DNA of 28,380 nucleotides, taken from the IMG/VR virus record IMGVR_UViG_3300024255_000114, positions 1-28,380 of that record; one strand, 5' to 3'. The notes beneath the pieces are model-generated. The model had not been told where the DNA came from, ran no database searches, and worked only from the letters and a program-made list of their open reading frames with translations. Both the position numbers and the translations under genes were made by a program. Origin of the DNA: a virus. Positions within the stretch are counted from its first letter, which is position 1. Each line of letters begins with the position of its first letter. This document shows positions 2,619 through 22,500 of the stretch, one piece after another.

Positions 2619-2623
2619 GGTTA

Positions 2624-3565: not shown

Positions 3566-3568
3566 TAG

Positions 3569-4248: not shown

Positions 4249-7200
4249 CTAGAATGCTTTAATAAGGTATTTTACTTTATGAAACTCTGGTGCTAATGGT
4301 ACAGTTCTATTTGGAGAAAATACTACATCAGGAATGGGTTTCTTTATACTAGTATTTAGGGTGAATACTCCAGGGTTCAATTCCATTCCAACGTCTGCTT
4401 GACTGAACTCAACATCAATATAGGTTTGGGCTGCTCCAAGTCCTTCTCTCCGACTACCCGGACCATTTTGGTTACCAAAACTAAAGTCTTCAGTAGGATC
4501 AATAACTGGTTGTAGTGTCAGAAGATGACTATGAGTTTTGATATTAGCTTGAGATGAATTGGTATTTCCAACATCTTCAGGAGCTCCATCAACAATCTGT
4601 GGTGTATAAGAATCAACTCTTAAGAAACGTGGTCGGGTATCAATAACGGCAGAAACATTTCTTCCTTTAGGTCCAGGAGTTCCTCCAGCTGCTGCAGTGT
4701 CATAATTACCGTCATTTGTTAATGGAGACACAAATTCTAATTCATTTAATGCGGGTCCATCACTAAATGGAGATGCGAAAAACGTATCTGCAGAAAGTTG
4801 TAAAGATTTCTTTGATCGAGATTGCTCATTATTTACGCTGGATGCAACACTTTGAATCAAAGTATCAACAGAAACTTGAAGATCATCAGCGCCAGAAATT
4901 TGTTCCCATTCAACTTGAAAATCAGGAGCTTTTGCACGTAATTTATCAAGATATAATGTAGTTATAGGTGTAGGATCAGCGGCGATAGCTCCATCCTGAA
5001 AATCACGGTAATTATTAAGAGCTCCTGATCCTTGACCTATTCCATCTGAAGTACTATGATTACCCAATTTAGATGATCCTCTAACATTCCATTCAATTAA
5101 CGGATCTCCAGTATTTCCATCAGTTAATCCAGTTACATAAAGATGAGTATGTGCAGGCACATTAACTGCTGTCTCTAATAATGGACCAACTTGAGCATTT
5201 ACATATCCCGCAGCGGGAATAGTAAAATCAACATCAGCTGTAATAGGTGCATTAAATACTGTTTTAACAGTACCAATACTAAAGAAGGTACTTTCTGTTC
5301 CTGTTGTATCATTAGTATCATCAGATATAATTATCTGATCAGGATCTGGTCCAGCAACATCCACATCATCAACATACCACCATCCACCAATTCCTCCTGC
5401 TCTATTGACACTCTTATCATCTTCGGGTGAAACTAATGCAGAACTTCCACGGTTTCCATCAACTACACCAGTTCCTACCATTTTTCTATTTCTATAATCA
5501 GGCACGTTAAAACTACCACTGTATACTTTGGTACCAGAATCATATGATGCATCTCCACCATAATGATTCTTGATTACCTGCCACAACCATGGGAATTCTG
5601 CCGCAAGATACTCTTCTCCATCACACTCAAGATAACCTGGGAATCTAGCATCTAATTTACCAGCAGTGATTGTACCCGCAAGGTCTCCATATGATCCATC
5701 AGGTCTCTTAAGAACTGAAAGGACTGTTCCAATAGCATGACCATCTTCTTTACTTTCAATAACATCACCATCAGTGTTAATATATGCTCCCTTCTTACTA
5801 TACCAGGCACCTTTAAGATCTGGTGGTGGTGGAGCAACAGCATAGTTACTTACTTGCCAAATAAATTGATTTGGTGATCCAGTACCAATAGTAACAGTTG
5901 TAGTTACTCGTCCAGCAGTGACTTGACCATTGCCATCTATAGTAAGAAGATCAGGAGAAGTGTCAATAAAGATACGGAACGAAGTATTTACATTAGGATC
6001 AAATGTAACTGTAGATCCTGTAGCTGGTTGAAAATCAAGAGAGATTCTTGCACCATTCGTAGCAGAAATTGTAATTGGTCTATTAATTTGAGCGACACTT
6101 ACAATAGAGCTAACAATTTCAGAACCAGGAACTTGATTATTTTCATTAGACGGCACTGAAAATACAGCATCAGTATCTGGTCCACTATTTGTAATAATAG
6201 TCCAGGGGGGAATTTGTCTAGTACCTACTTTAATAACAGTTGTTACTGCTGATGAGATAGTTGGAGTGGTAAATGTTTCTGAAGACCTGTTATATAATAC
6301 AATTTTATCACCTATACGTACTTTTGTTGGAAACAATCCAATAGAACTCTCGCCTCCATCTGCATACTGAATCTTAATTCTTGGTTCATCTGCACCAGAA
6401 TCATTAGAAGAAGTACTGCTTATTAATACAACATCAACTTCTCCAGGATCATCATTATTTTCAAAAGCAATGCCAGTATTAGGAGCAGGATCAGAGGCAA
6501 TTAATGCATCTTCTAATACATCATCTACATTTGAGAATGAAAATGCAATAGGAGTAGTTGATGGAAAACTACCAGTACTTACATTCCATGCGGATCCATC
6601 AATTCCATCACCAATACTCAACTGACTGGTGGTTTGTACATTTGCTCCAGGTGCTGTCGTTAATTTTAGTTGAAGAAATTGTCCATTCGTAATTGTTGGA
6701 ATGTCATTAGTGTCTTCAAAAGTTACTCCAGTTAAAACTTCAAATCCATCATCATTAGTCTCTGTATCGTCTGTGTCGGAGATTGCAAAATATAAATTAG
6801 TGTTTGTAGAACTTACAATAGCGGTATCGTTTAATCCTCCGACCGACAAAATATTACTATAAACAACACTATTTAATGCTTGATTAGTAAGGTTAATAAA
6901 AGTTGGAAATGGTTCAGGAGTATTTGGTGGAGATACTTTAGTAATAACCGTCCATCTTTCTGATCTCGCTCCAATAACAAGATCTAAAGTAGAAGCAAGT
7001 CCTTGAAGAATATTGGACTTTAATCTAACTTGAATTTCATCTGTATTTGTTACAGTTAGTGTGCCAGAAACTGGTATAATCCAATCTCCAAATGTAGTTT
7101 CTCCTTCAGAAACTTTCTTGACTCTAATTGAAAAATTATTTACATCTACACTTAAAGAACTAAAAACAGTAACATTTGCTTGAGTTGATGGTGTTAATCC

Positions 7201-7467
7201 AGTTACAGTAACAATGTCTTCTCCAGGTCTAGTTCCATCACCATAGACATACATTATGTCTGCATCTTGATCTTCAAGTGGTGTGAATGGATATGGATCA
7301 GGAGCAAAATCTTCTGGTATCGTAGTGATAAACCAGGAAGTTGATCTTAAACCAATCTGAATACTAACACTTGCTGTTGTAGCCCAAGCTTCAGGAGCTT
7401 TATATTTAAAGCGAACTGTTTGTCCTTCGCTTACATATACTGGTGTAGTAGAATAAGAATATGTCAT
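4249..7467 (-). CDS. Tail-collar-domain fibre protein with N-terminal repeats, 1072 aa
   Basis: A large structural protein in two parts. Residues 1-550 are beta-rich and repeat a signature of the form (I/V)xIGxR or IGxG followed by W and T: near 36-49, 163-176, 284-297, 412-426 and 526-538. Residues 578-670 form a tail-collar domain, with GTVLSVLKRPDG, then FPGYLECDGEEYLAAEFPWLWQ, then FNVPDYRNRKMVGTG, as in short tail fibres. Residues 675-1072 are a receptor-tip-like region with two HxH motifs, H773-T-H775 and H979-S-H981, and the ending YLIKAF. HxH motifs bind metal in trimeric fibre tips such as T4 gp12 and gp37. It is the first gene after the late promoter at 7513. AGGAAG lies 12 nt before the ATG, a long spacing. 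A homotrimeric host-binding fibre is likely. Confidence 0.85.
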   Translation of the reverse strand: MTYSYSTTPVYVSEGQTVRFKYKAPEAWATTASVSIQIGLRSTSWFITTIPEDFAPDPYPFTPLEDQDADIMYVYGDGTRPGEDIVTVTGLTPSTQANVTVFSSLSVDVNNFSIRVKKVSEGETTFGDWIIPVSGTLTVTNTDEIQVRLKSNILQGLASTLDLVIGARSERWTVITKVSPPNTPEPFPTFINLTNQALNSVVYSNILSVGGLNDTAIVSSTNTNLYFAISDTDDTETNDDGFEVLTGVTFEDTNDIPTITNGQFLQLKLTTAPGANVQTTSQLSIGDGIDGSAWNVSTGSFPSTTPIAFSFSNVDDVLEDALIASDPAPNTGIAFENNDDPGEVDVVLISSTSSNDSGADEPRIKIQYADGGESSIGLFPTKVRIGDKIVLYNRSSETFTTPTISSAVTTVIKVGTRQIPPWTIITNSGPDTDAVFSVPSNENNQVPGSEIVSSIVSVAQINRPITISATNGARISLDFQPATGSTVTFDPNVNTSFRIFIDTSPDLLTIDGNGQVTAGRVTTTVTIGTGSPNQFIWQVSNYAVAPPPPDLKGAWYSKKGAYINTDGDVIESKEDGHAIGTVLSVLKRPDGSYGDLAGTITAGKLDARFPGYLECDGEEYLAAEFPWLWQVIKNHYGGDASYDSGTKVYSGSFNVPDYRNRKMVGTGVVDGNRGSSALVSPEDDKSVNRAGGIGGWWYVDDVDVAGPDPDQIIISDDTNDTTGTESTFFSIGTVKTVFNAPITADVDFTIPAAGYVNAQVGPLLETAVNVPAHTHLYVTGLTDGNTGDPLIEWNVRGSSKLGNHSTSDGIGQGSGALNNYRDFQDGAIAADPTPITTLYLDKLRAKAPDFQVEWEQISGADDLQVSVDTLIQSVASSVNNEQSRSKKSLQLSADTFFASPFSDGPALNELEFVSPLTNDGNYDTAAAGGTPGPKGRNVSAVIDTRPRFLRVDSYTPQIVDGAPEDVGNTNSSQANIKTHSHLLTLQPVIDPTEDFSFGNQNGPGSRREGLGAAQTYIDVEFSQADVGMELNPGVFTLNTSIKKPIPDVVFSPNRTVPLAPEFHKVKYLIKAF

Positions 7468-7505: not shown

Positions 7506-7513
7506 TATTTATA
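7506..7513 (-). promoter_or_regulatory. T4-type late promoter TATAAATA
   Basis: The minus strand reads TATAAATA at 7513-7506, an exact match to the T4 late promoter -10 octamer that is recognised by the phage sigma factor gp55 with the sliding clamp. It lies in the only intergenic gap of any size within the structural region (49 nt), 3 nt past the stop of the 571-residue gene. It leaves a leader of about 30-35 nt before the ATG at 7467. It should drive the collar fibre and all genes down to the terminator at 135-109. No other exact octamer on this strand sits at a gene start in the window. Confidence 0.85.
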
Positions 7514-7516
7514 GAC

Positions 7517-9232
7517 TCAAATCCGCTCCACATCTACAAATATACCACTATTATCAATTTCTACCTGAATAGGAGCATCTGCTTTGATTTTTACTGGTAT
7601 GTCTATATCAGTTACTAATACTTGTAAAGTAGTAACTTCTACATCAGGTGTGATGACTGGTGCCTCATCACGAATTTTTTCTTCTGACTCTGGAACATCA
7701 AAAGCATCTGGATCTCGATCAATATTACAGTTAACTATTGGAAGTATTGACTGTTCAGTTAATCCCCCAACACCTACTCCTACTGTTGTATATTGAATAT
7801 TTGCTGGTCCTCGACTATGCCATGGAATGACATGTGTATATGTTGTCTGTGATGTCTCTTGAGAAGCTCCCAAATCAACTGTCTCTGTAGTTACATTATA
7901 ATCTAAATCTGTCATAACAATCGTTAGATTGTATGAACTAGTTGATCTTATTTGGGAATGAGTTAACGTCACATTATTACCATAATCTACCGAAAAAGGT
8001 CCAGCCAAAGAAAGTTCTGGCGCAGTCCATACTGTTAAAGTAACCTCTTCAGTAGCACTACCAGCAGGACCATTAGCATATGCAGTATATGTAGTAGTTT
8101 GTGTTGGAGCAACTTGCTGGAAGGATGAAAGATTACTATTACCAATTCCGGGTTGAATATTAATCGAAGTTGCATCTCCACTAACACTCCACGACAATTT
8201 AGATTGTGTTCCTAAAGGAATTGGATTATCAGAAAGTTCTAAAGTGATTGTAGGTGGAATATAAACAATATGTCCGATATACGCTTGATGACTGCCACCA
8301 CTATAATATAATCTTACTGTCCATGTACCAGAGACCTGTGGTTGTAAACTAATACTAGTTGTTCCCGTAACAGTATATACAGTTCCCTCTGGACTTGTTA
8401 GTGTCATCCTACTAATAAATGATGTATACGTTGTTGACCAAGAGAAGCTTACAACATCACCTCTAATTATAGGATTTCTTGATACTGTAAATGAATTAAA
8501 TGTTGGAGTAGCAAGATCATATTGAAGTGTTGCATAACCATCTCCGTAGTGATTTTGATCACCCCCTGTAGATGTTACGTATGATGATACGTAATAACTT
8601 CCTCCACCTCTGCCGCCCGTGCTTGCATATCCACCAGCACGTCTATCTGCACCCTCACGACCACCAGCACCACCCCGTGCTCCACCGCCGCCTCCACCGC
8701 CTCCACCGCCGTCAAAGCTTTGAGACGTGCCTTGACTACCAGAAGAAATACTACTCCTATAAGAAAGGAACTGCGATGAATTTCCGTTCCCACCTCTCAA
8801 ATAAGAATCAGGGTAGGATGCTCCACCGCCACCGCCACCACCTCCAGCGACAATAATATATTGTCCAGCATAAGTATCATATACTCCACTGGCAGCACCA
8901 CCACCTCCGCCGCCACCAGACCACCCCTGCGGACCAGGATTTCCTCCTCTTCCACCACTTGCTACGCCACCTGATCCACCACTCCCTCTACCAGTATTTG
9001 ACCCAGAAGATGCATTTCCACCAGATTTTCCAATATAAAAATATAGTGTTCTTGAAAAACCAGTATTATTTAATCTAAATGATTTTTTTCTTCCAGGTCC
9101 ACGAGTTCCTCCGGAATTATTTCCATCAACACCACCATTACCACCTTGAGAACCAGCAATTGTTATTCGTACATTAATAGCACGATCTGGTATTGCAACA
9201 GTATGAGTTCCTCTATAGTAAGTATTGTTCAT
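7517..9232 (-). CDS. Fibre paralogue 6: Gly-rich head, Ig-like stalk, conserved C-terminal tail, 571 aa
   Basis: Residues 1-238 are a glycine-rich domain that opens like an ALK/LTK-type Gly-rich domain: a short THTVAIP strand, then VRITIAGSQGG. It contains poly-Gly runs near 106-112, 130-137 and 175-184, a GVYD near 116-119 and the closing strand GDGYATLQYD. Three Ig-like domains follow at about 241-325, 326-402 and 403-503; the second has the LSWSVSGDA and IQPGIG pattern shared by the array. Residues 505-571 are the conserved tail, with DRDPDAFDVPE and DIDIPVKIKADAPIQVEI. The ATG overlaps the previous stop by 1 nt (TAATG), with GTGGAGC as Shine-Dalgarno. It probably acts as an adhesin-like fibre or fibre decoration. 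Its Ig stalk and tail resemble the 516-residue paralogue most. Confidence 0.85.
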   Translation of the reverse strand: MNNTYYRGTHTVAIPDRAINVRITIAGSQGGNGGVDGNNSGGTRGPGRKKSFRLNNTGFSRTLYFYIGKSGGNASSGSNTGRGSGGSGGVASGGRGGNPGPQGWSGGGGGGGAASGVYDTYAGQYIIVAGGGGGGGGASYPDSYLRGGNGNSSQFLSYRSSISSGSQGTSQSFDGGGGGGGGGGARGGAGGREGADRRAGGYASTGGRGGGSYYVSSYVTSTGGDQNHYGDGYATLQYDLATPTFNSFTVSRNPIIRGDVVSFSWSTTYTSFISRMTLTSPEGTVYTVTGTTSISLQPQVSGTWTVRLYYSGGSHQAYIGHIVYIPPTITLELSDNPIPLGTQSKLSWSVSGDATSINIQPGIGNSNLSSFQQVAPTQTTTYTAYANGPAGSATEEVTLTVWTAPELSLAGPFSVDYGNNVTLTHSQIRSTSSYNLTIVMTDLDYNVTTETVDLGASQETSQTTYTHVIPWHSRGPANIQYTTVGVGVGGLTEQSILPIVNCNIDRDPDAFDVPESEEKIRDEAPVITPDVEVTTLQVLVTDIDIPVKIKADAPIQVEIDNSGIFVDVERI

Positions 9233-10989
9233 TATAGTTGCTCCACATCTACGTATACACCACTATCATTAATTTCTACTTGAATAGGAGCATCTGCTTT
9301 GATTGCTACTGGTATATCAATATCATTAATCTGTAACGTTATGGTGCTTTGTTCTTTTGGAGAGTAAACAGGATTTTCACCTTTTATAGCATCATCTGTT
9401 TCAGGTATTATAATTACATCTGGATCCTGGTCAATGTATACATCTACACCTTCCATAGCACTTTGAGTCAAATAATTTGTAGTTCCGGATTCTTCATAAG
9501 AATATCCTACAGCATCTAAATTAAATTCAATTTTATATGGTCCCTTATCTCCCCATGGAGTTAAATTATATACTGCAGTACTATCGACAAGATCCCCAGT
9601 TTCTAACTCAACATTATATTCACTACTCTCCAAAGTTGTCCCATCAACAAAATAAAATTTAGGTCTTAAAGTTAGAGATGTTTCTACATTTGTTGCCTCA
9701 TAAGACACTGATACATCATCACCATAATTTATATCCGCAGGAACAATAATACGAACAGTTGGTGATCGTAACACTATGAGTGTAACTTCCGATTCAGAAA
9801 ATCCACCAATTACTCCATCTGCACGAAGAAAATATGTTGTTGTAGTTGTAGGAGTGACTGCGACTTCACTCACAAAATTACTTCCTCCTTGTGATAATAG
9901 TCCTGGTTCTGCTAATGCCCAATCAGCATCACCAGTAACTTCCCACTCAATAATAGCTGTCTGTCCTTCAATAATAGTATTATTTTCATTATTTTTAACA
10001 TTGATATATGTACGAGTTTCATACTCCATATATACCGATGCTCTGCCAACAGTTCCATTTTGAGCAAATGGAGCAATAGGAGGACCATTCTGATCCCCAG
10101 CAACTCCAATGAAAAGAGAAGTAGTAATATCTAATAGTCCTCTTTCGACTAAATCTGGACGATCTAAAACTCCTGTAATTTCGGCACCACCACCTCCACC
10201 TCTTCCTAACAATGCACTCCTATCACCAGTAATTGATAGACCAAAACTACGAACATAACTGTTGACAGTTCCGGAACCTTGATTTTTTCGCTTACACCAC
10301 CAGACACCAAGACTCGCTGTAGTTTTTGAACCTATTTGCCCATATCCTCTAAATGTACCACCAGCAGCAGTACTCGATGCACTTGATGTTACGTATGCAC
10401 TGTATCTATTGTTATCAAATGTATAATTAAAATTAACTTTATAGTATCGCGACCATGAATATGTTCCGCAAGGGGCATTTTGCGTCGAAGGATTCATTAT
10501 GTCTATACTAATATCAGGGCTATATTCAACCTGTCCTTGTGACCATGGAGGACTATTCCGAAAAACATGATTTACAAAAAAATTATATGTTACTTGTTTT
10601 CCTGTTCCATCACCACCATCTCCGATAAACCTATCATTAAAAGAAGTTGCTGCAGATTCTCCACCATCATTTCTTCCGCCTCCAGTACCATTTGCTAAAG
10701 TTACAGTACTACTTCCTATTAATGCCTCTGGTCTAAAATCATAATTTCCCGTTGATGCTATACCACCATTTCCTCCACCATATTTTGCACCTATACCACC
10801 ACCCTGTCCACCACCAGCTGTCATTCCTAAAAATGTAGTGTCGCCGCCATTGTTTGCGGGTGACGATTGCTCATTTAATCTAGCAATATGCTCGCCACCA
10901 CCACCAGCACCTATTAATGTAAAAACAATTCTTTTTACATTTTCCGGAACTGGTAAAATAGATACATCGCTAGTATAAGTATTTGGCAT
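9232..10989 (-). CDS. Fibre paralogue 5: split Gly-rich head, two Ig-like domains, conserved tail, 585 aa
   Basis: The head (residues 1-325) starts with VKRIVFTLIGAGGGG. It has Gly-rich patches at about 58-77 and 262-269, separated by a non-Gly insert (about 130-250) with aromatic strands and two cysteines (C174, C232), and closes with GRASVYMEYE. This looks like the same Gly-rich fold carrying an inserted beta domain. Only two Ig-like domains follow, at about 326-407 and 408-518, so the first Ig of the other paralogues is absent. The tail (519-585) has IDQDPDVIIIPE and DIDIPVAIKADAPIQVEI. It starts 1 nt after the 458-residue gene ends and overlaps the 571-residue gene by 1 nt. Its last codons (GTG GAG CAA) supply the next gene's Shine-Dalgarno. 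Confidence 0.85.
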   Translation of the reverse strand: MPNTYTSDVSILPVPENVKRIVFTLIGAGGGGEHIARLNEQSSPANNGGDTTFLGMTAGGGQGGGIGAKYGGGNGGIASTGNYDFRPEALIGSSTVTLANGTGGGRNDGGESAATSFNDRFIGDGGDGTGKQVTYNFFVNHVFRNSPPWSQGQVEYSPDISIDIMNPSTQNAPCGTYSWSRYYKVNFNYTFDNNRYSAYVTSSASSTAAGGTFRGYGQIGSKTTASLGVWWCKRKNQGSGTVNSYVRSFGLSITGDRSALLGRGGGGGAEITGVLDRPDLVERGLLDITTSLFIGVAGDQNGPPIAPFAQNGTVGRASVYMEYETRTYINVKNNENNTIIEGQTAIIEWEVTGDADWALAEPGLLSQGGSNFVSEVAVTPTTTTTYFLRADGVIGGFSESEVTLIVLRSPTVRIIVPADINYGDDVSVSYEATNVETSLTLRPKFYFVDGTTLESSEYNVELETGDLVDSTAVYNLTPWGDKGPYKIEFNLDAVGYSYEESGTTNYLTQSAMEGVDVYIDQDPDVIIIPETDDAIKGENPVYSPKEQSTITLQINDIDIPVAIKADAPIQVEINDSGVYVDVEQL

Positions 10990-10990
10990 A

Positions 10991-12367
10991 TTAGATCGGT
11001 CTTACATCTTGGTAATTACCACTATCATCAATTTCTACCTTAATTGGAGAATCAGCTTTAATTTCCACTGGTATATCTATATCATTAATCAATAATCCAT
11101 TAGTATTTAATTGGTCACCAGGAGTAAAAACTGGTTGTTCGTTTTTTATCTTACCTTCAGACTCCGGAATCGCTATTTGATCTGGTTCTTGATCAATATC
11201 TACATTAATAATTATGTTATCCGTATCTTTTTGCTCTCCATATCCTTCAACATTCGCAATATATGCTATTTGTGATGGTCCTCTATCATCCCAAGGTGGA
11301 GTATCTATAAATTCATCATCCAGATCATCACCAGTAGGTAATTCTATCTCTTGTCCGATTGTTTCTATTCCATCAAGAGAGTAATAATATGGTGTTACCA
11401 TAAATTCTGTCGGAATATTTTCACCCTTATATTGTACAGTAACATCCTCTCCATAATTAACCCTTTGAGGACCAATTAATTCTATAGAGGGAGAAGGATA
11501 TACAATTAATTCAATTTCATCAGTATCTTCTCCTGCTATAGAATGACTTGCCTTTGCAGTATATATTGTTGTAACTGTGGGGCTAACTGTTTCAAAGGAT
11601 GCAATATTAGTATTACCAATTCCAGGTTGAATATTCAGCGTAGTAGCATCACCAGTAATAGTCCAAGATAATTCAGATGATTGTCCTTCGTTAATTGGGT
11701 TCTCTGATAACTTTAATGTTATATTAGGCTTATCATAAACGGTTACATATTTAACAGTACTGATTGCTTGTCCACCCGCATTAGTAGCTTTCACCGTGTA
11801 TGAGGTCTCACCAGTTATATTGGAAGCTGGTGATATAACTACAGTTCCACTATTAGCATATAAATTTTTGATACTAACATTGTTTTGTGTTACAATGCGA
11901 CCATAGACAGGAATTGTTGATGATATAGAATATGTAAGGTTGAAAGAAGTAGTGCCTGGTCTAACAATAGAAGTTTTATTTGTTGAAATAGAAATTGTTG
12001 GTTTGGCATAACTACATACAGTTGATAAGGCATTTCCTGGTGTCGCATTAGGAACATAATTAGTGGCTCTATAGTCAGTGCATCCATAAACAATAGGTGG
12101 CGGACATCCCCCTGAACTCAATCCATTATAAGCACCTGACTCTGCCATGCTGGTACTAGCTACCATTGAAGTATAACTTGAGTAGTTACCAGTTGCCCAT
12201 AAGCTTTCATGATAACTTACTCCTCCCGGTTCAGCATATCTACCAAAAAGAACTTTATATGCATTTGAAATACCAGATCTGACAGAATTACCATCAGGAA
12301 AGTACATCACTATTGATGTACAGGAACCGGAGGAATTTGAATAGTAATGACCTAATTTATATCCCAT
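10991..12367 (-). CDS. Fibre paralogue 4: DUF4214-like head, Cys-loop repeat, Ig-like stalk, conserved tail, 458 aa
   Basis: The shortest paralogue. Residues 35-80 (YKVLFGRYAEPGGVSYHESL, later STSMAESGAY) match the DUF4214 pattern YxxLLGRxxDPxGxxYW...SxE, a small helical domain common in secreted and surface proteins. Residues 94-119 are one copy of a GCTDxxAxNYxPxA...C motif, also seen twice in the neighbouring gene. Three Ig-like domains span about 122-211, 212-290 and 291-389. The second carries LSWTITGDA and IQPGIGNTN. Residues 390-458 are the conserved tail with DIDQEPDQIAIPE and DIDIPVEIKADSPIKVEI. The ATG overlaps the 516-residue gene's stop by 1 nt, with TGGAG as Shine-Dalgarno. The head replaces the Gly-rich domain of other paralogues, which points to module exchange. 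Confidence 0.85.
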   Translation of the reverse strand: MGYKLGHYYSNSSGSCTSIVMYFPDGNSVRSGISNAYKVLFGRYAEPGGVSYHESLWATGNYSSYTSMVASTSMAESGAYNGLSSGGCPPPIVYGCTDYRATNYVPNATPGNALSTVCSYAKPTISISTNKTSIVRPGTTSFNLTYSISSTIPVYGRIVTQNNVSIKNLYANSGTVVISPASNITGETSYTVKATNAGGQAISTVKYVTVYDKPNITLKLSENPINEGQSSELSWTITGDATTLNIQPGIGNTNIASFETVSPTVTTIYTAKASHSIAGEDTDEIELIVYPSPSIELIGPQRVNYGEDVTVQYKGENIPTEFMVTPYYYSLDGIETIGQEIELPTGDDLDDEFIDTPPWDDRGPSQIAYIANVEGYGEQKDTDNIIINVDIDQEPDQIAIPESEGKIKNEQPVFTPGDQLNTNGLLINDIDIPVEIKADSPIKVEIDDSGNYQDVRPI

Positions 12368-13917
12368 TAAATTTGCTCCACATCTACAAATGTACCACTA
12401 TTATCTATCTCAACTTGAATTGGTGCGTCTGCTTTAATAGCTACAGGAATATCTACATCATTAATGACAATTTGCATAGAAGTAACCTCTACATCAGGTG
12501 TAATAACTGGTTGCTGATTACGAATTAATTCATCTGACTCTGGAATATCTATTTCATCTGGGCTTTGATCAATATCAATAAAGACAATAAGAGGATCAGA
12601 ATCAGTCAAACCACCTTCAGACTGTCCAAATAAAGTTAGATCTATTGTACGGGGTCCACGAAGTGTATATGTTGGTATATAAGTATATGTTCCTGTTTCA
12701 GATTCACTCGCCCCTAAATCAATAGTTTCCGTGGTACTGTTATTATCTAAATCAGTAGTGCTAACTTGCAATTCAAATGTGTCGTTAGCGTTTTCTTGTT
12801 CATAAGTTATTGTAATCGAATCTCCATAATTTACACGCAAAGGTCCATTTATCGTCACTTCTGGTGGTTGTAATACTACGATCTCAATTTCTGCACTATC
12901 TTGACCACCAAGTCCAGATGCTGATATTGTATATTTGGTAGTAACAGTTGGACTAACAAATTCAAATGAAACTAAATTAGTACTTCCAATTCCTGGTTGT
13001 ACGTTTACTACGGAAGCATCACCAGTAACAGTCCATTCTAATTTAGTAGATTGTCCCAGAATAATAAGTTCACTTTCTGCTGTAAATGTTATCTGTGGAG
13101 GAATATAAACGATCAACGGTTTTGTTACGCTGTTGGTGGTGTATCCATAATAAGATCCACTTAAAGTATAGCTCTTACTGTTTTGTGGAGTAATAGTTGT
13201 ATCACCACTAACACTTACAGAACCAACATCCGTCAAAGATGTTGATGTTGAATAACTCGTAGACCATGTAAGAGTTACAGATTCTCCTCTAATAATTGCT
13301 GATGGAGAAATAGTTAAGTTAAGAATTGGTGTTGGATATGAACATCCACTATTAATATTAGCACTTGGATTATAGTTAGATGCTAAACGATCCATACACC
13401 CATAGACATTATATGTACACCCAGAGCTGACTTGATTTGCATATGGATTGTAGTTATTAGCACGGGAGTCTTTACAACCATATACAAATACAGGAGAATA
13501 CCACGCAACACCTTTAGATTCGTATCCCGATGGCGCAGAATTACTAGTCTTAAACTTATGATCTACAACTGAAGGATTATAAAATTTATAAACTGCTACA
13601 CGATATGCTCCAGGACCAGTATATGCATAACCAATAACACCTTCATAAACATAACCAGCAGGAGTGCCGGAACTAGTTTTGTAAAAGTGATTATATTGAG
13701 TTGGATTCCAATATCGATATACAGGTGCAACAGCCCCAACGATTCCAGGAACGCTACCAGACATAAAAAGATTCCAAACACCAGTGGATACAGCACTATA
13801 TGCAGTGATTGCTTCGCCACCAGAGTTTGAAGTATAGAAAGTATCCGCTCTAAAATAACCAGGATTGAAAGTAGCGTAAAAAGAATCGAATGTATGTAAA
13901 TTACCTGAAGCTCCCAT
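12367..13917 (-). CDS. Fibre paralogue 3: DUF5648-like head, two Cys-loop repeats, Ig-like stalk, conserved tail, 516 aa
   Basis: Residues 64-142 are two rounds of a DUF5648-like repeat: VYRYWNPTQYNHFYKTSSG...GYVYEGVIGYAY, then VYKFYNPSVVDHKFKTSNS...GYESKGVAWY. In bacteria this repeat is found on secreted hydrolases and surface proteins. Two GCxDxxAxNYNPxA...GC motifs follow, at 147-167 and 173-192. Ig-like domains are at about 198-271, 272-349 and 350-448, and the conserved tail at 449-516 carries DIDQSPDEIDIPE and DVDIPVAIKADAPIQVEI. AGGGAG lies 8 nt before the ATG. There is a 2-nt gap from the preceding paralogue and a 1-nt overlap with the next. Stalk and tail are closest to the 571-residue paralogue, although the heads are unrelated. 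Confidence 0.87.
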   Translation of the reverse strand: MGASGNLHTFDSFYATFNPGYFRADTFYTSNSGGEAITAYSAVSTGVWNLFMSGSVPGIVGAVAPVYRYWNPTQYNHFYKTSSGTPAGYVYEGVIGYAYTGPGAYRVAVYKFYNPSVVDHKFKTSNSAPSGYESKGVAWYSPVFVYGCKDSRANNYNPYANQVSSGCTYNVYGCMDRLASNYNPSANINSGCSYPTPILNLTISPSAIIRGESVTLTWSTSYSTSTSLTDVGSVSVSGDTTITPQNSKSYTLSGSYYGYTTNSVTKPLIVYIPPQITFTAESELIILGQSTKLEWTVTGDASVVNVQPGIGSTNLVSFEFVSPTVTTKYTISASGLGGQDSAEIEIVVLQPPEVTINGPLRVNYGDSITITYEQENANDTFELQVSTTDLDNNSTTETIDLGASESETGTYTYIPTYTLRGPRTIDLTLFGQSEGGLTDSDPLIVFIDIDQSPDEIDIPESDELIRNQQPVITPDVEVTSMQIVINDVDIPVAIKADAPIQVEIDNSGTFVDVEQI

Positions 13918-13919
13918 GT

Positions 13920-15611
13920 CTATATCTCCCTAATATCTACATAAATTCCACTGTCACCAATTTCAACCTGAATAGGAGAATCAGCTTTGATCTCCACTGG
14001 TATATCTATATCTCTAACAGTTAGAGTAATTGTAGTATCTTCTCCAGGACTAATAATAGGATTTTCGCCTATAATGGCATCTTCAATTTCTGGAATAACT
14101 ATTGCATCTGGTTCTTGATCAATATCAATATTAACAGTAGTAAAGCTTTCTGACTGTAATCCTCCTTCACCAATTGCATACAACTCATATTCAATGCTAG
14201 ATGGTCCGATATCGTTGTATGCAACTTCATGATCAAAATTTTGATCTATGATATCAGTGCCAGAAACTTCAAATTCTTTAATTAGTTGATAATCAGTAAA
14301 AGTCCCATCAATATAATAATATTTTGCTAATAACTGAAGAGATTGTGTTGCCTGTTGAGACTGACAAATTACAATAACATCTTCTCCATAATTAACCTTT
14401 TCAGGACCAATCAAATTTGTTACTGGCGGTTGAATTACAGTTATAGTAACTTCATCCGATCCTGTTCCCGCAATAGGATGAGACGCAGTTAATGTATATG
14501 TTGTAGATACAGTTGGAGATACTTGTATTCCTGGAGAACCTCCACTAATATTGACAAGACCAATTCCAGCACTCATAGATGCTACAGAAGCATCACCAGT
14601 GATAACCCACGAAATAAACGTAGATTGTCCCAAAATAATAGTTTCATCTGTAGCTGGTGTACTTAAAGTAACTTCTGGCGGAATCAAAACATCAACCACT
14701 TTAGTCAATGTTGCAGTTTCCCCAGGTCCGACAGCAGTTAAGGTGTATGATGAATCATTTTGAGGAGAAATATCAAATTCATCCTCAAAAGGTAAATTTG
14801 ATCCTATAAGATCAATACTTACGCTATTCACAAAACCAGTGACCTTATAACGTAATTCTGCTGTGTCTCCTCTAACAAATTGTTGCGGTATAATTGTAAA
14901 ATATTGAATAACTGGTGGAGCATAATCAAAAGAACAAACAAAAAATCCATCACCATTATTTGAATATCCACTATTATTAGTCCATCGATAATAATTGGTA
15001 TTGGAATACCAAGCAGAGTTACCACCAATACCAGCATATCCATTAGTTGTTGATGTACCACCGGCATCACCAGCGCCACCAGAATCAGAACCTCCTCCAC
15101 CACCTCCACGATGCCCTGCAGGAGCATTACCACCAGATCTTCCACTAAACCCACTTTGCGTACCGCCGCCACCAATACCGCGACCAGCAGTATAATATCC
15201 AGAACTACCAGTATCATTATCATTTTTACCAGCGCCGCCACCGCCGCCAACAATAACAGTATATCTACCCAATCCACTATCATAAACGCCAGAAGCTCCA
15301 CCACCGCCACCACCAGACCGGTGACCATTGCCACCACTTGCAATCCCGGAAGATCCGCCAGATCCACCAGGATTATTTGGTCCGTATCCTTTAGCTCCCT
15401 GACCACCAAGATAGAAAGTTAACGTATATGCAGTATTTCTGGTGACTAATCTAAAATCGCCAGATCTACCAAAACCACCACGCGAATGATTCCATGTAGT
15501 AGATTGAGATCCTCCACCTGATGCAGCTCCTACACTAAATCTTACGTTTGTAGAGTATTCCGGAATGTCTACTTGAAAACTTCCGTATCTATTGCCTGAA
15601 CTAGTTGGCAT
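13920..15611 (-). CDS. Fibre paralogue 2: Gly-rich head, Ig-like stalk, conserved C-terminal tail, 563 aa
   Basis: Residues 1-230 form a Gly-rich domain close in plan to that of the 571-residue paralogue. An initial beta strand (GSFQVDIP, VRFSVGAASGGG) is followed by GGSGGSSGIASGG, poly-Gly then ASGVYD at 106-111, VIVGGGGG at 119-126, another Gly block near 169-174 and the final strand NGDGFFVCSFDY. Ig-like domains lie at about 233-309, 310-392 and 393-496. The tail (497-563) has DIDQEPDAIVIPE and DIDIPVEIKADSPIQVEI. The last third is strongly similar in DNA to the 531-residue gene, suggesting recent duplication or gene conversion. It follows that gene with a 2-nt gap. Probable host-surface-binding fibre component. 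Confidence 0.85.
   Translation of the reverse strand: MPTSSGNRYGSFQVDIPEYSTNVRFSVGAASGGGSQSTTWNHSRGGFGRSGDFRLVTRNTAYTLTFYLGGQGAKGYGPNNPGGSGGSSGIASGGNGHRSGGGGGGASGVYDSGLGRYTVIVGGGGGAGKNDNDTGSSGYYTAGRGIGGGGTQSGFSGRSGGNAPAGHRGGGGGGSDSGGAGDAGGTSTTNGYAGIGGNSAWYSNTNYYRWTNNSGYSNNGDGFFVCSFDYAPPVIQYFTIIPQQFVRGDTAELRYKVTGFVNSVSIDLIGSNLPFEDEFDISPQNDSSYTLTAVGPGETATLTKVVDVLIPPEVTLSTPATDETIILGQSTFISWVITGDASVASMSAGIGLVNISGGSPGIQVSPTVSTTYTLTASHPIAGTGSDEVTITVIQPPVTNLIGPEKVNYGEDVIVICQSQQATQSLQLLAKYYYIDGTFTDYQLIKEFEVSGTDIIDQNFDHEVAYNDIGPSSIEYELYAIGEGGLQSESFTTVNIDIDQEPDAIVIPEIEDAIIGENPIISPGEDTTITLTVRDIDIPVEIKADSPIQVEIGDSGIYVDIREI
13970..14096. repeat. Near-identical DNA repeat, copy A (tail of the 563-aa gene)
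   Basis: This stretch matches 15664-15790 with few mismatches in its first 85 nt, most at third codon positions. It includes an unbroken run of about 39 identical bases. It encodes part of the conserved C-terminal tail (IPE...ISPGEDTTITLT...DIDIPVEIKADSPIQ). Identity at this level between tandem genes suggests a recent duplication or ongoing gene conversion. Confidence 0.75.
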
Positions 15612-15613
15612 AA

Positions 15614-17209
15614 TTAAATCCGTCTAATGTTTCTCCAATTATCATCATCATCAATTTCTACCTGAATAGGAGAATCAGCTTTAATTTCCACTGGTATATC
15701 TATATCTGTAATAGTTAGAGTAATTGTAGTATCTTCTCCAGGACTAATAATCGGAGTTTCATTTATAAGTGCATCTTCAATTTCTGGAATAGTTATTTCA
15801 TCTGGGCTTTGATCAATATATACAGCAACATCAACAATATCAGAGGTATCAAGAAATCCATATCCATCTACAGTAAATGTAAGTTTTACATTTGTTGGTC
15901 CGTAGTCATTATAAGTGACAGGAATGGTATAAGACAAAACTTCTATAATATCTCCAATAGTATTAGGAACATCAATTGCACCTGGTATCTGCACAACTTG
16001 TCCTGATGTATACGTATATTCGGAAACATAACTAACACCTCCATCAGAATTTGTGGCAGAAATACTCACTATAATATCGTCTTCGTAATCAATATTGATA
16101 GGTCCACTTACACTTAATGTAGGTGGTTGCAAAACTGTTACTTTTATCTCTTTAGATGCAACTCCCCCTAAACCAGAAGCTGTAATTGAATATGTTGTAG
16201 TCGTAGACGGTTGTATGAATGTACTAGAATTATTATTGGAAGATCCAACCCCAGGAGTAATTACTACTGTATCGACATCACCAGTAATAGTCCATTTCAA
16301 CGTCCGCTGTTCTCCCAATACAATAGTTATGTCCTCGGATGTTGGTTCTTCTTCATCATCAGTTACAGTAAATGTTATATTTGGTGGTATATAAACAGTA
16401 ACTATGACACTATCTGTTTCTTCATATGCAGGATTGGTAGTGGTTAATCTAAATTCAGTAGTTTCTTCTGGGGAAACATAAAATCCTGTTGAATTATTTC
16501 TAGCTTGTTGACCATAATTATAAACTACGCTTCCATTAACCAATGCTTCTATAATTTCACTATCTGATTCTCCGCCACTAGTGCTCCATGTTAATTTAGA
16601 TCGTGACTCATTACCATCACCACCATCTAATCTAAATGCTAAAGGTGAAGCAGTAATAGAGGGTCTTGGTCTTTCATATGTACAGACACATGCATACATT
16701 GCTCCCTGAATACCATACCTGCAATTACCGCTTCCACCTTGCGTACCGCCCCTACCAATACTAACACTAATATACTGACCAGGACAAGAACCAGCTGATC
16801 CTCTATATCGAACACAACAAGATGCTCCACCACCCCCACCACCATACGATTGTGATCCAGATCTCCACTGACCAGCACCACCTTGACCAAGACCACCATA
16901 TCCTGATGGAGCTCTACTGGAAGGACCAAAGGAATAACCTCCTCTACTTCCGCTTCTCCAAGAACCCCATCCGCCGCCTCCACCACTGTAAAGACTACCT
17001 GCTCCACCACCACCCGAACTAACACTACCAGGACTAATCGAAGTACCTGTTCCTGATCCTGGTGCCGTGAATCCGGGTCTTGGTAAACCAGAAATGTTGG
17101 GATAAGCACCACCACCGCCACCTCCGACAGTGATGTATGTAACATACTTCACATCTGTTGGTACCATGAATCCACAACTTGTTGATCTGTAGATACTATA
17201 CGTTCCCAT
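15614..17209 (-). CDS. Fibre paralogue 1: Cys- and Gly-rich head, Ig-like stalk, conserved tail, 531 aa
   Basis: Residues 1-180 are Gly- and Ser-rich, with poly-Gly near 29-34, 67-69, 76-80 and 123-128, and an unusual seven cysteines (C12, C131, C132, C142, C163, C174, C176). Ig-like domains follow at about 181-272, 273-360 and 361-464; the second has LKWTITGDV and ITPGVG. The tail (465-531) keeps IDQSPDEITIPE and DIDIPVEIKADSPIQVEI but ends with a divergent DDDDNWRNIRRI. This is the first gene of the six-gene array, 12 nt after the 302-residue collar protein. No strong Shine-Dalgarno is seen. It likely forms a fibre or tip component like its paralogues. Confidence 0.85.
   Translation of the reverse strand: MGTYSIYRSTSCGFMVPTDVKYVTYITVGGGGGGAYPNISGLPRPGFTAPGSGTGTSISPGSVSSGGGGAGSLYSGGGGGWGSWRSGSRGGYSFGPSSRAPSGYGGLGQGGAGQWRSGSQSYGGGGGGASCCVRYRGSAGSCPGQYISVSIGRGGTQGGSGNCRYGIQGAMYACVCTYERPRPSITASPLAFRLDGGDGNESRSKLTWSTSGGESDSEIIEALVNGSVVYNYGQQARNNSTGFYVSPEETTEFRLTTTNPAYEETDSVIVTVYIPPNITFTVTDDEEEPTSEDITIVLGEQRTLKWTITGDVDTVVITPGVGSSNNNSSTFIQPSTTTTYSITASGLGGVASKEIKVTVLQPPTLSVSGPINIDYEDDIIVSISATNSDGGVSYVSEYTYTSGQVVQIPGAIDVPNTIGDIIEVLSYTIPVTYNDYGPTNVKLTFTVDGYGFLDTSDIVDVAVYIDQSPDEITIPEIEDALINETPIISPGEDTTITLTITDIDIPVEIKADSPIQVEIDDDDNWRNIRRI
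15664..15790. repeat. Near-identical DNA repeat, copy B (tail of the 531-aa gene)
   Basis: Partner of the copy at 13970-14096. The matching block covers the conserved C-terminal tail codons and the ISPGEDTTITLT segment. Mismatches become more common toward its high-coordinate end, then similarity resumes in a stretch encoding IPEIEDA. Confidence 0.75.
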
Positions 17210-17221: not shown

Positions 17222-18130
17222 CTAAAATTTAATAATGTAATGAACTAATATAAATGGAGTTACCGTTTGATTTAATACTTCTAAATTTTCTACATCAACA
17301 TCAACGTAAGATTCTATATCAGCAATGTCTACATCGATATTGTCATGAGTATAGTTAAACTTTGGTTGGTTAGATGGTTGATATGTAAAAGGTCTTGTAA
17401 TAGTGTGATCATGAGTAGCTTCTCCAGTTGGAATAGACATTGATGTCTCTTCTAAACTATTTCCAGCAGTAGCATTTGCGCTGTTGGCTCGTGGTCCTTT
17501 TCCGTCACCTGTAGTATCGTGTTGCGTATTTTTATTGACAACTGTTAATCCAGTTCCACCACCAACATTATGATAATGTCCCTGAAATTCATCGATCGAT
17601 AGAGATACAGCACTGGTATCTCTGGATATATTATATTTTGGAGATCCGTTGAACTGGTAAATATCACTCTCTATGATCATATTTCCAATATAATTCACAC
17701 TCGCTCTATTTCCAATATTTGAAATAGGAGTTACTTCTACACCAACCTTACTAGTATTGCTTCCTTCTATAGTAGTTGAGAGATAATCTCCAGATCCTCT
17801 ACTACCAACAATAACTTTCGATCCAAGATCAGGTAATTGAAATTGTCCTAAATCACCTGTTTCAGGATCAGGATTTCTTAATGTAACATTTTCTTTTTTG
17901 AATCTACATTCGTCACCTACGCCAAGAATTTGTGATAATAATAGAAAATCTTTTGCAGATTTAATAGAACCGTCACACTTCAAAAATCCTGCTGGAATAT
18001 TTTTTTTAAAAACCTCACTAGTTGGATCTGCTCCTATAGCAATGTCCTCAATAGTGTGGATTTGAATAGTTCCTGGTATTCCGCCCCAATGAGCTTTAGC
18101 ATGACTATAACTTGTATTTCTAGTAACCAT
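17222..18130 (-). CDS. Tail-collar-domain fibre protein, 302 aa
   Basis: Residues 38-110 form a tail-collar domain: IPAGFLKCDGSIKSAKDF, LLLSQILG, then FQLPDLGSKVIVGSRGSG. The remainder carries two HxH motifs, H185-Y-H187 and H240-D-H242, and the ending FILVHYIIKF, which is a frequent terminal strand of collar-domain fibres. The protein is small for a fibre and could be a tip or short-fibre subunit. It starts 1 nt after the 478-residue collar gene, with CAGGG upstream as a weak Shine-Dalgarno. Position between a larger collar protein and the Ig/Gly array supports a role in the same distal tail structure. T4 gp12 (short tail fibre) is the nearest well-known analogue by domain, but I would not call it gp12 from this. 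Confidence 0.83.
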   Translation of the reverse strand: MVTRNTSYSHAKAHWGGIPGTIQIHTIEDIAIGADPTSEVFKKNIPAGFLKCDGSIKSAKDFLLLSQILGVGDECRFKKENVTLRNPDPETGDLGQFQLPDLGSKVIVGSRGSGDYLSTTIEGSNTSKVGVEVTPISNIGNRASVNYIGNMIIESDIYQFNGSPKYNISRDTSAVSLSIDEFQGHYHNVGGGTGLTVVNKNTQHDTTGDGKGPRANSANATAGNSLEETSMSIPTGEATHDHTITRPFTYQPSNQPKFNYTHDNIDVDIADIESYVDVDVENLEVLNQTVTPFILVHYIIKF

Positions 18131-18131
18131 T

Positions 18132-19568
18132 TTAGTATGCCCTGATAATGTATATAGAAGTTACTCTTGGTTGCTCAATGTTAAAGTCAATCTGTAAAGC
18201 ATTTCTATTAGCTGTATTATCAATTTGGACCGTATTTGGCAGGTTTACATCTACAGTAAGATTACTTTGTGGTCTCATTCGTGAACTATCAAACGCAACA
18301 TCAAACTCATCATGAGTATGTGCCTGAATAAAATCACTTGATGAATTGTTTTTGAAGTTAATTCCAGGATTACTAATTAATAGATCCCCTACCTGACTTT
18401 GACTGTTACTGTAATTATTTCTATATCCGGGGGGAATAGTAATACCATTACCGCCGAAACCATAAGGAACACTAGTTTCAATATATTTACCATTTACAAA
18501 TTCCTGAATTGTACTCAACGGAGAATAAGTGACATCTGCAGGTTTCATGTTAATCGGAGGTTGCTCTGATGTTACTTTAGCAACAGTTGTACCTGAAGTT
18601 CCTGTAAGAAATCCTGATAAAAGGTCTGAAGTAGGCCATTGCAAAGTATAAGTATCTGTAATATTAGCAGAAGATGGTGCAGCATTAGGATTAGAAAGTC
18701 TACCAGCTACAATACCACCAAATTGATTAGAAGTCTCACTTAATGTAATAGAAACTGTGCTACCCTCACCGTCGGACGACGTTTCAGCAGGAGAATCTTC
18801 TTTCCAACCTTCATCAGTATTACTATATCCAAAGTAAAAAGTTTCTCCTGTTTGTTCATCTGCAGTCTCGCCTTCATCCCTGTTAGATCCATCATTATCA
18901 ACAGCTGTTGCAAACAAAGTATAATAGATAGTTCCATATGGAACTACACCATCTCCAGGTTGATTTGGGGAAGTTCTATCAATAGTTTCGATTTTACCTG
19001 CATGATTATGTCGTTTAATATGGTCTCTACCTAATTTTCGAGGACCAACATAAACTGTCTTAAAACCTTCTCCATTAATTAAAGTATTTCCTTTAAGTCT
19101 TCCTTGATATCCTGATCTGTCATTAGGACTAATGTTAAATACCAGATCAACAAAAACATCATTAAAAATAGTAGTGATTCCTTGATCTTCATTAGTTCCA
19201 ATTAATGGATCCATTAATGAGAATGCTACAGAATCTTTATCAGCATCACGACCTGTTCCACCAGATGAAGATGCTCCAGCAAAATAATCACTTTCAATAT
19301 CCATCAGTGTCTTCCCATTTAAATTAGGAATTTTGATGGTACCACCATAATTAGGAAAAGAATTAACACCAGTTCCAACAAAATCGCTAACACCGGAATT
19401 ATAAGTATCTCCAATAGTTTGTGCTAATAAAGGAAAATCTCTAGCATCTAAAGATTGACCATCACAAATAATCCATCCAGCGGGGACTGATGTAAGACCC
19501 CCTGTCCATGGCATAATGGTACCGATTGCAGCACCTCTTGTACTTTTAGATTCTTGGTAAAAAGGCAT
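18132..19568 (-). CDS. Tail-collar-domain fibre protein, 478 aa
   Basis: The N-terminus carries a clear collar domain at about residues 15-95: GTIMPWTGGLTSVPAGWIIC, then DGQSLDARDFPLLAQTIG, then IKIPNLNGKTLMD. Downstream are H187-N-H189 and H417-T-H419, which in trimeric fibres can bind metal ions along the axis, and a terminal SIYIIRAY. Acidic, Ser- and Thr-rich stretches at about 225-275 are probably surface loops. It begins 6 nt after the giant structural gene and ends 1 nt before the next collar gene. It may act as a short tail fibre or as the distal part of a fibre whose proximal part is the giant protein. Collar identification is firm; the exact place in the virion is not. Confidence 0.87.
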   Translation of the reverse strand: MPFYQESKSTRGAAIGTIMPWTGGLTSVPAGWIICDGQSLDARDFPLLAQTIGDTYNSGVSDFVGTGVNSFPNYGGTIKIPNLNGKTLMDIESDYFAGASSSGGTGRDADKDSVAFSLMDPLIGTNEDQGITTIFNDVFVDLVFNISPNDRSGYQGRLKGNTLINGEGFKTVYVGPRKLGRDHIKRHNHAGKIETIDRTSPNQPGDGVVPYGTIYYTLFATAVDNDGSNRDEGETADEQTGETFYFGYSNTDEGWKEDSPAETSSDGEGSTVSITLSETSNQFGGIVAGRLSNPNAAPSSANITDTYTLQWPTSDLLSGFLTGTSGTTVAKVTSEQPPINMKPADVTYSPLSTIQEFVNGKYIETSVPYGFGGNGITIPPGYRNNYSNSQSQVGDLLISNPGINFKNNSSSDFIQAHTHDEFDVAFDSSRMRPQSNLTVDVNLPNTVQIDNTANRNALQIDFNIEQPRVTSIYIIRAY

Positions 19569-19574: not shown

Positions 19575-22500
19575 TTATACTTCGATTAGATACCATCCTT
19601 CGTTAGAAGGAGAAACAGCAGTGTTGCCATCAGGATCAGAAGTTCCTGCGTAAACAAGAGCAAAGGCAGCATAAGGTGTTTGTACAACTAATTCACCACC
19701 ATTGAAACCATTTAACTCATTACTACTAATTCCGGAAAGTAATGTATTACCCGTGTTATCAGAAGAATTCTGTACTTTCGTACCAGTTTCTGCTCTGATA
19801 ACCAAAGAAACATTATATGTTAAATTACCAGAAACATCAACGATTCTAATCATATCTCCCAGTTTAGGATTTAGAGGTAATTTTACGACAGTATTTTGAC
19901 TGACTTCCAAGAAGTAATTTGTATTTGCAGCTGCGTCAACTACAAAGCTAGCAGAAGCTAACCACTTACGACCACCCGATGGTGAGAAATAGTTACTAAT
20001 ACCAGCGACCGTTACTCTACCATCATTTTCAACACTGAAGATTGTATCACCTGCCTGATTGATCGTTAGATCACCACCGTTAATTGTCAGATCAGCTGCA
20101 GCATTATATGGGAAGTCAGTATCGGTAGTGCCAAATGCACCACCAATCTGAATAGCACCACCAAACTTACTTGTTCCAGATCCAAGAGCAGAGAATGATC
20201 CGTAGGTAGCAAAGTCTCCAGAAGAATTATCAAAGGTAAGTCTTGGCGTAGTTCCATCAACACCAAAGATATTGAAGTTACCGCCATACATGTCTACATC
20301 ACCAGTTGCAGTATCAATCTGGAATGTTGTTCTCAATGGAGTTCCAGTAGAACCTCCATTAGTGATGGTAAAGAACTCTCTATTTTCAATCGTAGAACCA
20401 TTGATCGTAAGTGTGTTCTCGGTAGTAAGTGTTCCTGCAATATCAGTATTACCTGTAGCAGAATCAACAACTAACTTGTTAAATCCTTGACCAAACTTAA
20501 GATTCCCACTACCAAAAGTGTTACCAGTTGTAGACTCAACCTTAAAGTTGACAGACTCCGGAATTCCACCATCAGTAATTATAAGTGATTGAATATCAGT
20601 AGAAGTTAATTCAACAATCTTAACAATCTCACTGTCAGTAAGAAGAAGATAATCATTTGTAGTAAGGAATCCACCAAATTCAGAAATACCAATACGAACA
20701 TTGGCAGTATCAGCAAGAAGACCAGATGCACTCTTAATATTGACTGTTGCATTAGTATCAAAATCAGACCAGAGCTTGGTTTGAGTAGCATAAGGTCCAC
20801 CAATTTTAATTTCAACAACACTTGACCCAGGTTGAATGCTCTGTTGTACTGGCCAATCACCATTCAGTTCACTTATGTCTGTGCCAGCGATTCTGATAAA
20901 CTCTCCATAATTAACATCAAGAGTTGAGTTAGTTTCACCATTCCAGAAAATTTGAACGATGTCAGTGCCATCAAAAACAATTCTATCTATTTCACTATCT
21001 ACAACAAGGACACTTGATACAGGATCCAATTCACCATTCTCATCAGCGTCAAATCCAGTGATGAACGATGCATTAGTCTGCTTATCCAACTTGTTAAGTA
21101 CACAACCATCAGGGTGATCTGTCCTTGCAGTTGTTCCAAGAATTCCACGAGAAACTGCAAGACGGAAACCAAAAGGATCATTAGGATTGGTTACGTTGGT
21201 TAAACCGACAACCTCAACAATTTCGTTTTGAGATTCATCTTTAGCTAATGTTTGCTGTTGATCATCAACACTATCAGGAGAATTTGCATTTCCTCGTTCA
21301 ATCAAAATCAAATCACCAATCTTGAAATCAGCAACAGATGGTTGAGTAATTGGTATATTGAAAAGATTGCCAGAAGAGTTAACGCCAGCAACTCGGAATG
21401 TTAAGTCTTCTCCACTAGGATTACCCAGAGAAGCAGCAGGAATAGTTAATTGATCTCCGTCACTGTATCCAGTACCAGGAGATGCCAGTACAACCTGTGC
21501 TGTACCATCAGATAGTACCTTAATAGTAAACAGTGCGCCGTCTCCAGCACCTGAACTCTGAACTTCAAGGAATGGATAGTTTGTGTTAGCAACCCATGTC
21601 GAACTTTGTGTTGGTTGAATATTATCAATAGAAGAAATCTGACCACCACCAAGTAAATATGTAGGACCACCCCACATACCTTCACCAGCGGTATCAATAA
21701 CCTTACCACTCTCTTGATACTTGAGGAAAGTAATGTTTGGATTCTCAAGAGATCCAACAATGTGATCAGCAGGACTCGTAGAGAATCTTCCTCTCTCAAT
21801 TTCAACAATACCAGCGTTTAGACCACCAGATAGTTTGATGGATCCCATAACTTCAGCACTTGCAAGAACCTCAAGAGAGTTTCTAACAGTTGTTTTACCA
21901 CCGAGAGAACCAATCTGTATTCTTGAAGCATTGGTGCCCATATTTAAACGGGTTGTTGCTGAACTATCAGCAATGTTTAACGTTGCTGCAGGAGTAAAGA
22001 TACGAGCAGTAGATGTACCAGCAAAAGCAGCAATCTCTAATGTACCAGCAAGTCTGGTTTGATATGTACCAATGTATGTTGTGGTAGCAAGGTTAGGTGC
22101 TCCACCACCAAGTCTAACACTACAGTCACTAGTTACATTATCAGCGACAGTAGCAATATCAACAATAGCATCTTCAGAACGTTCATGAATCTTGAGGGTC
22201 GTTCTTCCTGCATTAGAACCAATTCTAACAGTTTGTGTAGAAGTATCTGCTACAGAATCACCAATACTAATTACTTGAGTTTGTGTTGTGGTGCTGCCAA
22301 GAATGATTGATTCTGCATTAGACAGACCAATGAAGAAGTCAGTGTCATTAATAAGGAACTGGAAAGTTTCTGAAGTGGAGTTAATATCACCACCATCAAC
22401 ACTCAAGTCATCTTCTAATGTCAAGTTACCAGTCATTCTACCATCACCGATAACAACGAAGTTCCTATCAAGTTCGGTAGATGGATCTAAACCGATGCTG

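Follow-up and report, generated by a model that had tools for sequence, protein, structure and literature searches.

The window analyzed here is a 28,380-nucleotide (nt) viral contig (IMG/VR record IMGVR_UViG_3300024255_000114), a fragment of a Kyanoviridae (T4-like cyanomyovirus) genome with every gene on the minus strand. It contains six tandem paralogous fiber-like genes, each encoding a variable N-terminal head, an immunoglobulin (Ig)-like stalk and a conserved C-terminal tail, and we conclude that this locus is probably a recombining array of C-terminally anchored, Ig-stalked virion adhesins with exchanged N-terminal recognition heads. Across related phages the array differs in copy number and head set, heads have been transferred between lineages, recombinant joints lie within stalks and tails, and tails have been converted. 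An expandable cassette array with exchangeable heads had been proposed in an earlier sequence-only reading of this stretch, and that proposal has strong support, as relatives vary in copy number and in the set and order of their heads, and recombination is seen in isolates as well as in contigs. The same reading held that the array diversifies host-surface binding, which is its putative function.

The six genes are successive minus-strand open reading frames (ORFs) at 17209-7517, encoding 531, 563, 516, 458, 585 and 571 amino acids (aa) and separated by spacers of +2, +2, -1, +1 and -1 nt, exactly as first described (458-585 aa, gaps of at most 2 nt or 1-nt overlaps). Unit 1 (15614-17209) combines a Gly-rich head of class h2 (~16607-17209) and an Ig-like stalk with a conserved tail at 15615-15830. 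Unit 2 (13920-15611) has a Gly-rich h5 head (~14913-15611), an Ig-like stalk and a tail at 13921-14136, and unit 3 (12367-13917) a DUF5648 head of class h7 (~13360-13917), an Ig-like stalk and a tail at 12369-12575. Unit 4 (10991-12367) carries a short head of class h13/h10 (~11984-12367), an Ig-like stalk and a tail at 10993-11199. The Gly-rich heads return in unit 5 (9232-10989; h1 head ~10225-10989, Ig-like stalk, tail 9233-9448) and unit 6 (7517-9232), in which the h4 head (residues 1-240) is followed by Ig-like domains (~241-503) and the tail (residues 504-571; 7519-7725). Head classes were defined by BLAST clustering with single linkage (≥ 38% identity over 60% of the head); their borders are threshold-dependent, and h10 and h13 merge once more sequences are added.

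The four Gly-rich labels initially given to these heads hold, and so does DUF5648 in unit 3 (PF18885, E = 2.9e-10, 40.9 bits against a gathering cutoff of 25, profile positions 42-133 of 134). The DUF4214 label for unit 4 was rejected, as it was found neither in the Pfam scan of unit 4 and three h10 homologues nor in NCBIfam at E ≤ 1. The non-Gly-rich heads are joined to the stalk by a Cys motif, YGCxDxxAxNYNPxA...SGCxY, of which unit 3 has two copies and unit 4 one.

Direct repeats of ~207-216 nt form the 3' ends of all six genes. All genes end in common stalk-tail DNA, so that direct repeats lie on both sides of every head. The tail had been called almost invariant, which is too strong: over the last 70 residues the mean pairwise identity of the six units is 59% (49-74%), rising to 71% over the last 30, and 22 of the 70 columns are invariant. 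Likewise, the stalk is shared as proposed, but its TGDA, PGIG and NYG(D/E) signatures are not uniform, with variants in unit 1 (TGDV, PGVG, DYED), unit 2 (AGIG), unit 5 (PGLL) and unit 6 (SGDA, DYGN). The only inverted repeats near the array are two weak pairs of 22-26 nt (73-77% complementary), with no long flanking pairs; an invertible, recombinase-switched fiber cassette was rejected, as suitable inverted repeats were not found. General Pfam scans of the ORFs of this window, itself a fragment, returned no reverse transcriptase; no search was aimed at diversity-generating retroelements.

The C-terminal region is present in 49 phage records, all of them cyanophage or marine. Array loci were taken from isolates and IMG/VR contigs and their tails counted by profile, leaving the distant loci L021-L023 out of the array count (L022 is without an array gene). 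The 42 non-redundant complete arrays contain one (n = 1), two (n = 7), three (n = 27), four (n = 2), five (n = 3) or six (n = 2) units and display 31 different head-class strings, and further variants occur in additional IMG/VR contigs. Although three units is the mode, a fixed threefold architecture was rejected, given the arrays of one, two, four, five and six units. Six is the largest number found among the 42 arrays and is reached only in the window and in S-CAM3 (Kyanoviridae, Charybdisvirus), the nearest sequenced phage, with 77% nucleotide identity across the array.

S-CAM3 has the same six heads in the same order, as one-to-one orthologues, but order and head type are not fixed in the other relatives. 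Gain and loss around h2-h5 gives h2-h5-h4, h2-h5-h7, h2-h5-h13-h4 and h2-h5-h7-h13, and longer strings in the same clade are h2-h5-h7-h10-h4, h2-h5-h7-h1-h4 and h2-h5-h7-h13-h1-h4. Reordering is seen among the relatives as well, in h2-h18-h5-h7 (versus h2-h5-h18) and h2-h5-h10-h7; h10 precedes h7 in locus L043. Elsewhere, h1 occupies position 1, 2, 3 or 5, and h3 and h6 occupy positions 1, 2 or 3.

Closely related pairs capture single recombination events. The S-RIM44 isolates W2_07_0710 (h3-h16-h9; 99.8% identical to Syn1 at the locus) and Np_42_0711 (h3-h6-h9) share 96-98% identity in the sequence next to the array, yet gene 2 has a different head in each. On the right side, identity resumes in the tail, ~180-220 nt before the gene 2 stop codon; toward the left, it decays within the stalk and tail of gene 1. 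The h16 and h6 groups each comprise four GenBank isolates, assigned by match positions. Between ACG-2014j and S-CAM4 (~94% identical), gene 2 has been replaced apart from its last ~205 nt. Loci L029 and L045 are 96.7% identical over 15.3 kilobases (kb) and differ by a 3,072-nt in-frame deletion, with a joint in L029 at which a single stalk crossover near the NYGD motif connects the head and first Ig region of the h7 unit with the stalk end and tail of the h4 unit. An assembly artifact is judged unlikely here, since exact words shared by the two parent genes reach at most 42 nt and events of this kind are also found in isolates. Two lake phage contigs (L052 and L053) with 99.98% identity across 20.7 kb are distinguished by a deletion of 237 nt, in frame, within the second array gene. 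In S-CAM3 isolate 0910TB04 (KU686198; L105: 8105-10222), a 19-nt deletion frameshifts the sixth array gene, leaving a 302-aa product with the head but without stalk or tail; the isolate is viable, so the phage may do without this unit on its host.

Heads also cross larger distances. S-RIM44 and S-CAM4, which belong to two genera, share an h6 head at 83% identity, compared with 39% in the Ig part, 49% in the tail and ~46% in the collar protein. Between the window and S-CAM3, the synonymous divergence (dS) of the unit 3 head is 0.18, while the other five heads have values of 0.58-0.74; the low value suggests that this head, too, was exchanged recently. These transfers bear on a reading in which an ancient large array has undergone lineage-specific unit loss and gene conversion, and the heads are fixed structural subunits instead of exchanged recognition modules. 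Such a history would account for the order often kept in the clade of the window (h2-h5-h7-h13-h1-h4 with gaps), for the orthologues of all six units in S-CAM3 and for tail conversion, which is real. It sits poorly with a head far more alike across genera than its stalk and collar protein, with the S-RIM44 isolates, in which a head was replaced and not lost, and with the order changes in other relatives, and we consider it very improbable.

In the C-terminal tree, the six C-termini of the window and the six of S-CAM3 form one clade (support 92/93) of one-to-one pairs, whereas their head classes recur in other genera. Between distant loci, C-terminal identity averages 31.1% where the head class is shared and 30.4% where it differs, compared to 44.1% within one genome (averages over all loci, redundant ones included). 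Between lineages, the C-termini thus follow the genome and not the head. Within genomes, the tails have been converted. The tail DNA of unit 2, apparently converted from unit 1, is 83% identical to that of unit 1 but 66% to that of the unit 2 orthologue in S-CAM3, and L045 shows 87% identity between its units 1 and 2.

Most phage fibers are anchored by their N-terminus, and the C-terminal part is the most conserved in the array units. Both points would suit a reverse polarity, with variable N-termini acting as adapters for different virion sites and the conserved C-terminus binding a common host component. We regard this arrangement as quite improbable: C-termini that track the genome, are homogenized within it and are no more alike for same-head pairs behave like a region matched to the virion of the phage that encodes it, heads that cross genera behave like one matched to hosts, and in fused units (see below) a tail sits between two heads. 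Taken together, the genome-matched constant C-terminus, the lineage-crossing N-terminus, the Ig stalk and the tail-gene neighborhood suggest C-terminal docking and N-terminal recognition.

All six units match the virion-protein families PHROG 2155, 9770 and 29022 over most of their length (best E 1e-126 to 1e-187), and since each matches the same families, the similarity among the units is far beyond chance. Homologues are annotated as virion structural proteins in phage records, which makes presence of the products in the particle of this phage plausible. The unit 6 structure was predicted as an AlphaFold2 monomer with 15 homologues (mean predicted local distance difference test (pLDDT) score 82.7) and shows the Gly-rich head at moderate to high confidence, followed by three Ig-like domains (~241-503) and a flexible tail. 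In fold searches it matches Ig chains, among them the Aureispira grappling-hook protein. The unit 3 model is poor in the head (first 170 residues mostly pLDDT < 60), and its fold matches concern the stalk only. Apart from Ig domains, the sole profile match in PDB is a marginal and compositionally biased alignment of the h4 profile along the glycine-rich domain of ALK (E = 0.02). Gly_rich_2 (PF21722) was found in 2 of 16 h4-class homologues (best E = 5.8e-7), and the window protein stays under every Pfam cutoff; this domain and the ALK/LTK glycine-rich domain are the nearest known counterparts. Several phage proteins that match the unit 6 model in BFVD carry the UniProt name 'receptor protein-tyrosine kinase', a name that probably arises via the ALK-type glycine-rich domain.

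Among the top fold matches of unit 6 is the three-Ig-domain Hoc of RB49 (E = 4e-7), and phage Hoc proteins also appear in the viral fold search. The units could therefore be Hoc-like decoration fibers with the C-terminus on the capsid, providing weak, optional adhesion to cells or surfaces and not a tail-based host choice. The polarity proposed for the array units is also that of T4 Hoc, an optional chain of Ig domains held by its C-terminus. The variable copy number and the viable S-CAM3 isolate with a frameshifted sixth gene would agree with such an optional role. However, the Ig-fold matches are generic, with titin and cell-adhesion proteins scoring alike, and Pfam and PHROG scans of the units gave no sequence match to Hoc families. 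Moreover, in the window and in annotated relatives the array lies between the phrog_4714 tail collar and phrog_4924 short tail fiber genes, near a tail-chaperone-like gene. A Hoc-like role is thus unlikely. The chain of Ig-like domains is what the units have in common with Hoc of T4-like phages, while the exchangeable heads and the tandem layout set them apart: we know of no exchangeable N-terminal head in Hoc and of no tandem Hoc array.

For an array of tail-borne adhesins, the following mode of action can be proposed. The variable head of each unit would probably contact the cell surface, the Ig-like domains would serve as its stalk, and the C-terminal tail of ~70 residues would probably dock on the phage particle, in the tail or baseplate region. 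Homologous recombination in the repeated stalk-tail DNA would delete units, add units and replace heads, and would also homogenize the tails within a genome. By gaining, losing and swapping heads, natural strains would probably change which cell surfaces are gripped.

Several relatives have two or three complete head-stalk-tail units fused in one ORF, as in L073, where h6, h1 and h3 heads and three tails share 1691 aa. In those lineages different heads must be synthesized jointly and, barring cleavage of the product, carried jointly. Such fusions indirectly favor diversity within one virion, one of the two options in the earlier reading. The linkers after internal tails of five fused ORFs (L010_2, L016_2, L059_1, L073_1 and L079_1) contain a VGGNS-like motif, for example RQI-GTPPYVQGSSVGGNSLP and RQI-GAVGGNSIAP, which is possibly a processing site or a spacer. 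More tentatively, one virion may show several recognition heads on a shared anchoring system, a recombination-tunable adhesin mixture in which the units are separate genes or a two- or three-headed polypeptide and the copy number sets the breadth of surfaces; we put this at somewhat below even chances.

Several observations weigh against recognition by C-terminally docked, exchanged heads. The ratio of nonsynonymous to synonymous substitution rates (dN/dS) of the heads is below 1 and in most pairs no higher than that of the stalks; elevated point diversification of heads was therefore rejected, and the signal is one of exchange. The PHROG category of the family is 'head and packaging', which favors the capsid but may just mirror annotation text. 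The unit 6 tail has low confidence in the monomer model (residues 509-551), so that C-terminal docking is putative. In a 500-day coevolution study of S-PM2, the array neighbors d218, d219, d220 and d224 are named as mutated in the main text and the array genes d221-223 are not (PMC9910659). The S-PM2d laboratory lineage has no change in its three array genes, and S-PM2 laboratory passage was accordingly rejected as evidence of selection on them.

The proteins themselves are not new to databases: by profile and genome position, the units are the same proteins as those of PHROG 2155, 9770 and 29022, which include S-PM2p223-225 and S-CAM3 gp229-234 (the latter in identical six-gene order). These families carry no functional assignment. 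No description of their modular head-stalk-tail organization, variable copy number, swaps or fused multi-unit forms was found in the open-access literature (subscription literature was outside the scope). The closest parallels are swappable adhesins. In T-even phages (T2, PP01, S16), the gp37/gp38 adhesin module of the distal tail fiber governs host specificity, and recombination between conserved motifs exchanges adhesin specificity (Tetart et al. 1998, as cited in PMC12529663 and PMC4919323); gp38 is a Gly-rich adhesin with receptor loops (structure in PMC12892980). The array resembles this system in its Gly-rich motifs and recombinational swaps, and its head swaps may affect specificity. 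Unlike gp38, a single adhesin at the fiber tip, it has up to six tandem paralogues with a variable N-terminus on an Ig stalk and a conserved C-terminal tail. No unit matched gp38 families in the Pfam or PHROG scans, and gp38, whose fold is a polyglycine-II sandwich, is absent from the 50 best PDB fold matches of the unit 6 model, a list dominated by Ig domains. Haloarchaeal hafunaviruses (myoviruses) encode Gly-rich adhesins in a hypervariable locus, and viruses of the same species with different adhesin groups differ in host range (PMC8651126). Their adhesin gene is not described as a tandem paralogue array, and host range was tested in those viruses. The tandem variable-copy array, the N-terminal heads on Ig stalks, the constant C-terminal tails and the multi-headed fusions distinguish this locus from these adhesins.

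Marine T4-like cyanophages are without recognizable homologues of the T4 tail fiber genes g34, g35, g37 and g12, and unassigned cyanophage structural proteins have been suggested to fill this gap (PMC2984593). The host-recognition module of cyanomyoviruses has a concrete candidate in this array. Should adsorption be determined by the heads, an array string such as h2-h5-h7-h13-h1-h4 could reveal the host range of a cyanophage, and fast host-range turnover among close relatives would get a simple mechanism, namely recombination between repeated tails. The S-RIM44 isolates with different heads in a 96-98% identical surrounding constitute natural test pairs.

The array is part of an extended tail module. 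In transcription order, it is preceded by a 2916-aa giant protein gene (19575-28325; homologues annotated as short tail fiber or virion structural protein, no Pfam match), a 478-aa collar or short-tail-fiber-like protein gene (18132-19568; phrog_4591) and, as its upstream boundary, a 302-aa tail collar protein gene (17222-18130; phrog_4714). Its downstream boundary is a 1072-aa 'short tail fiber' gene (4249-7467; phrog_4924), followed by three 2-oxoglutarate (2OG)-Fe(II) oxygenase genes and the tail-chaperone-like gene, whose identity as a chaperone is possible. All of these lie on the minus strand as well. An ATAAATA sequence, the reported core of T4-like late promoters in cyanophage S-PM2, is located at 7506-7512, 39 nt upstream of the 1072-aa gene; the motif occurs 3 times in the window versus 12 expected by chance, and not ahead of any array gene. 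The three oxygenase genes (1448-4243), beyond the array and tail fiber genes, are found in the same neighborhood in most relatives, and their products might hydroxylate Pro or Lys in Gly-rich virion proteins. For the product of 1448-1987, only 2OG-Fe(II) oxygenase profiles match, just under the cutoff. Its homologues (S-CAM3 YP_009321297.1) are named 'DNA endonuclease V' in several phage records, which is likely a misannotation.

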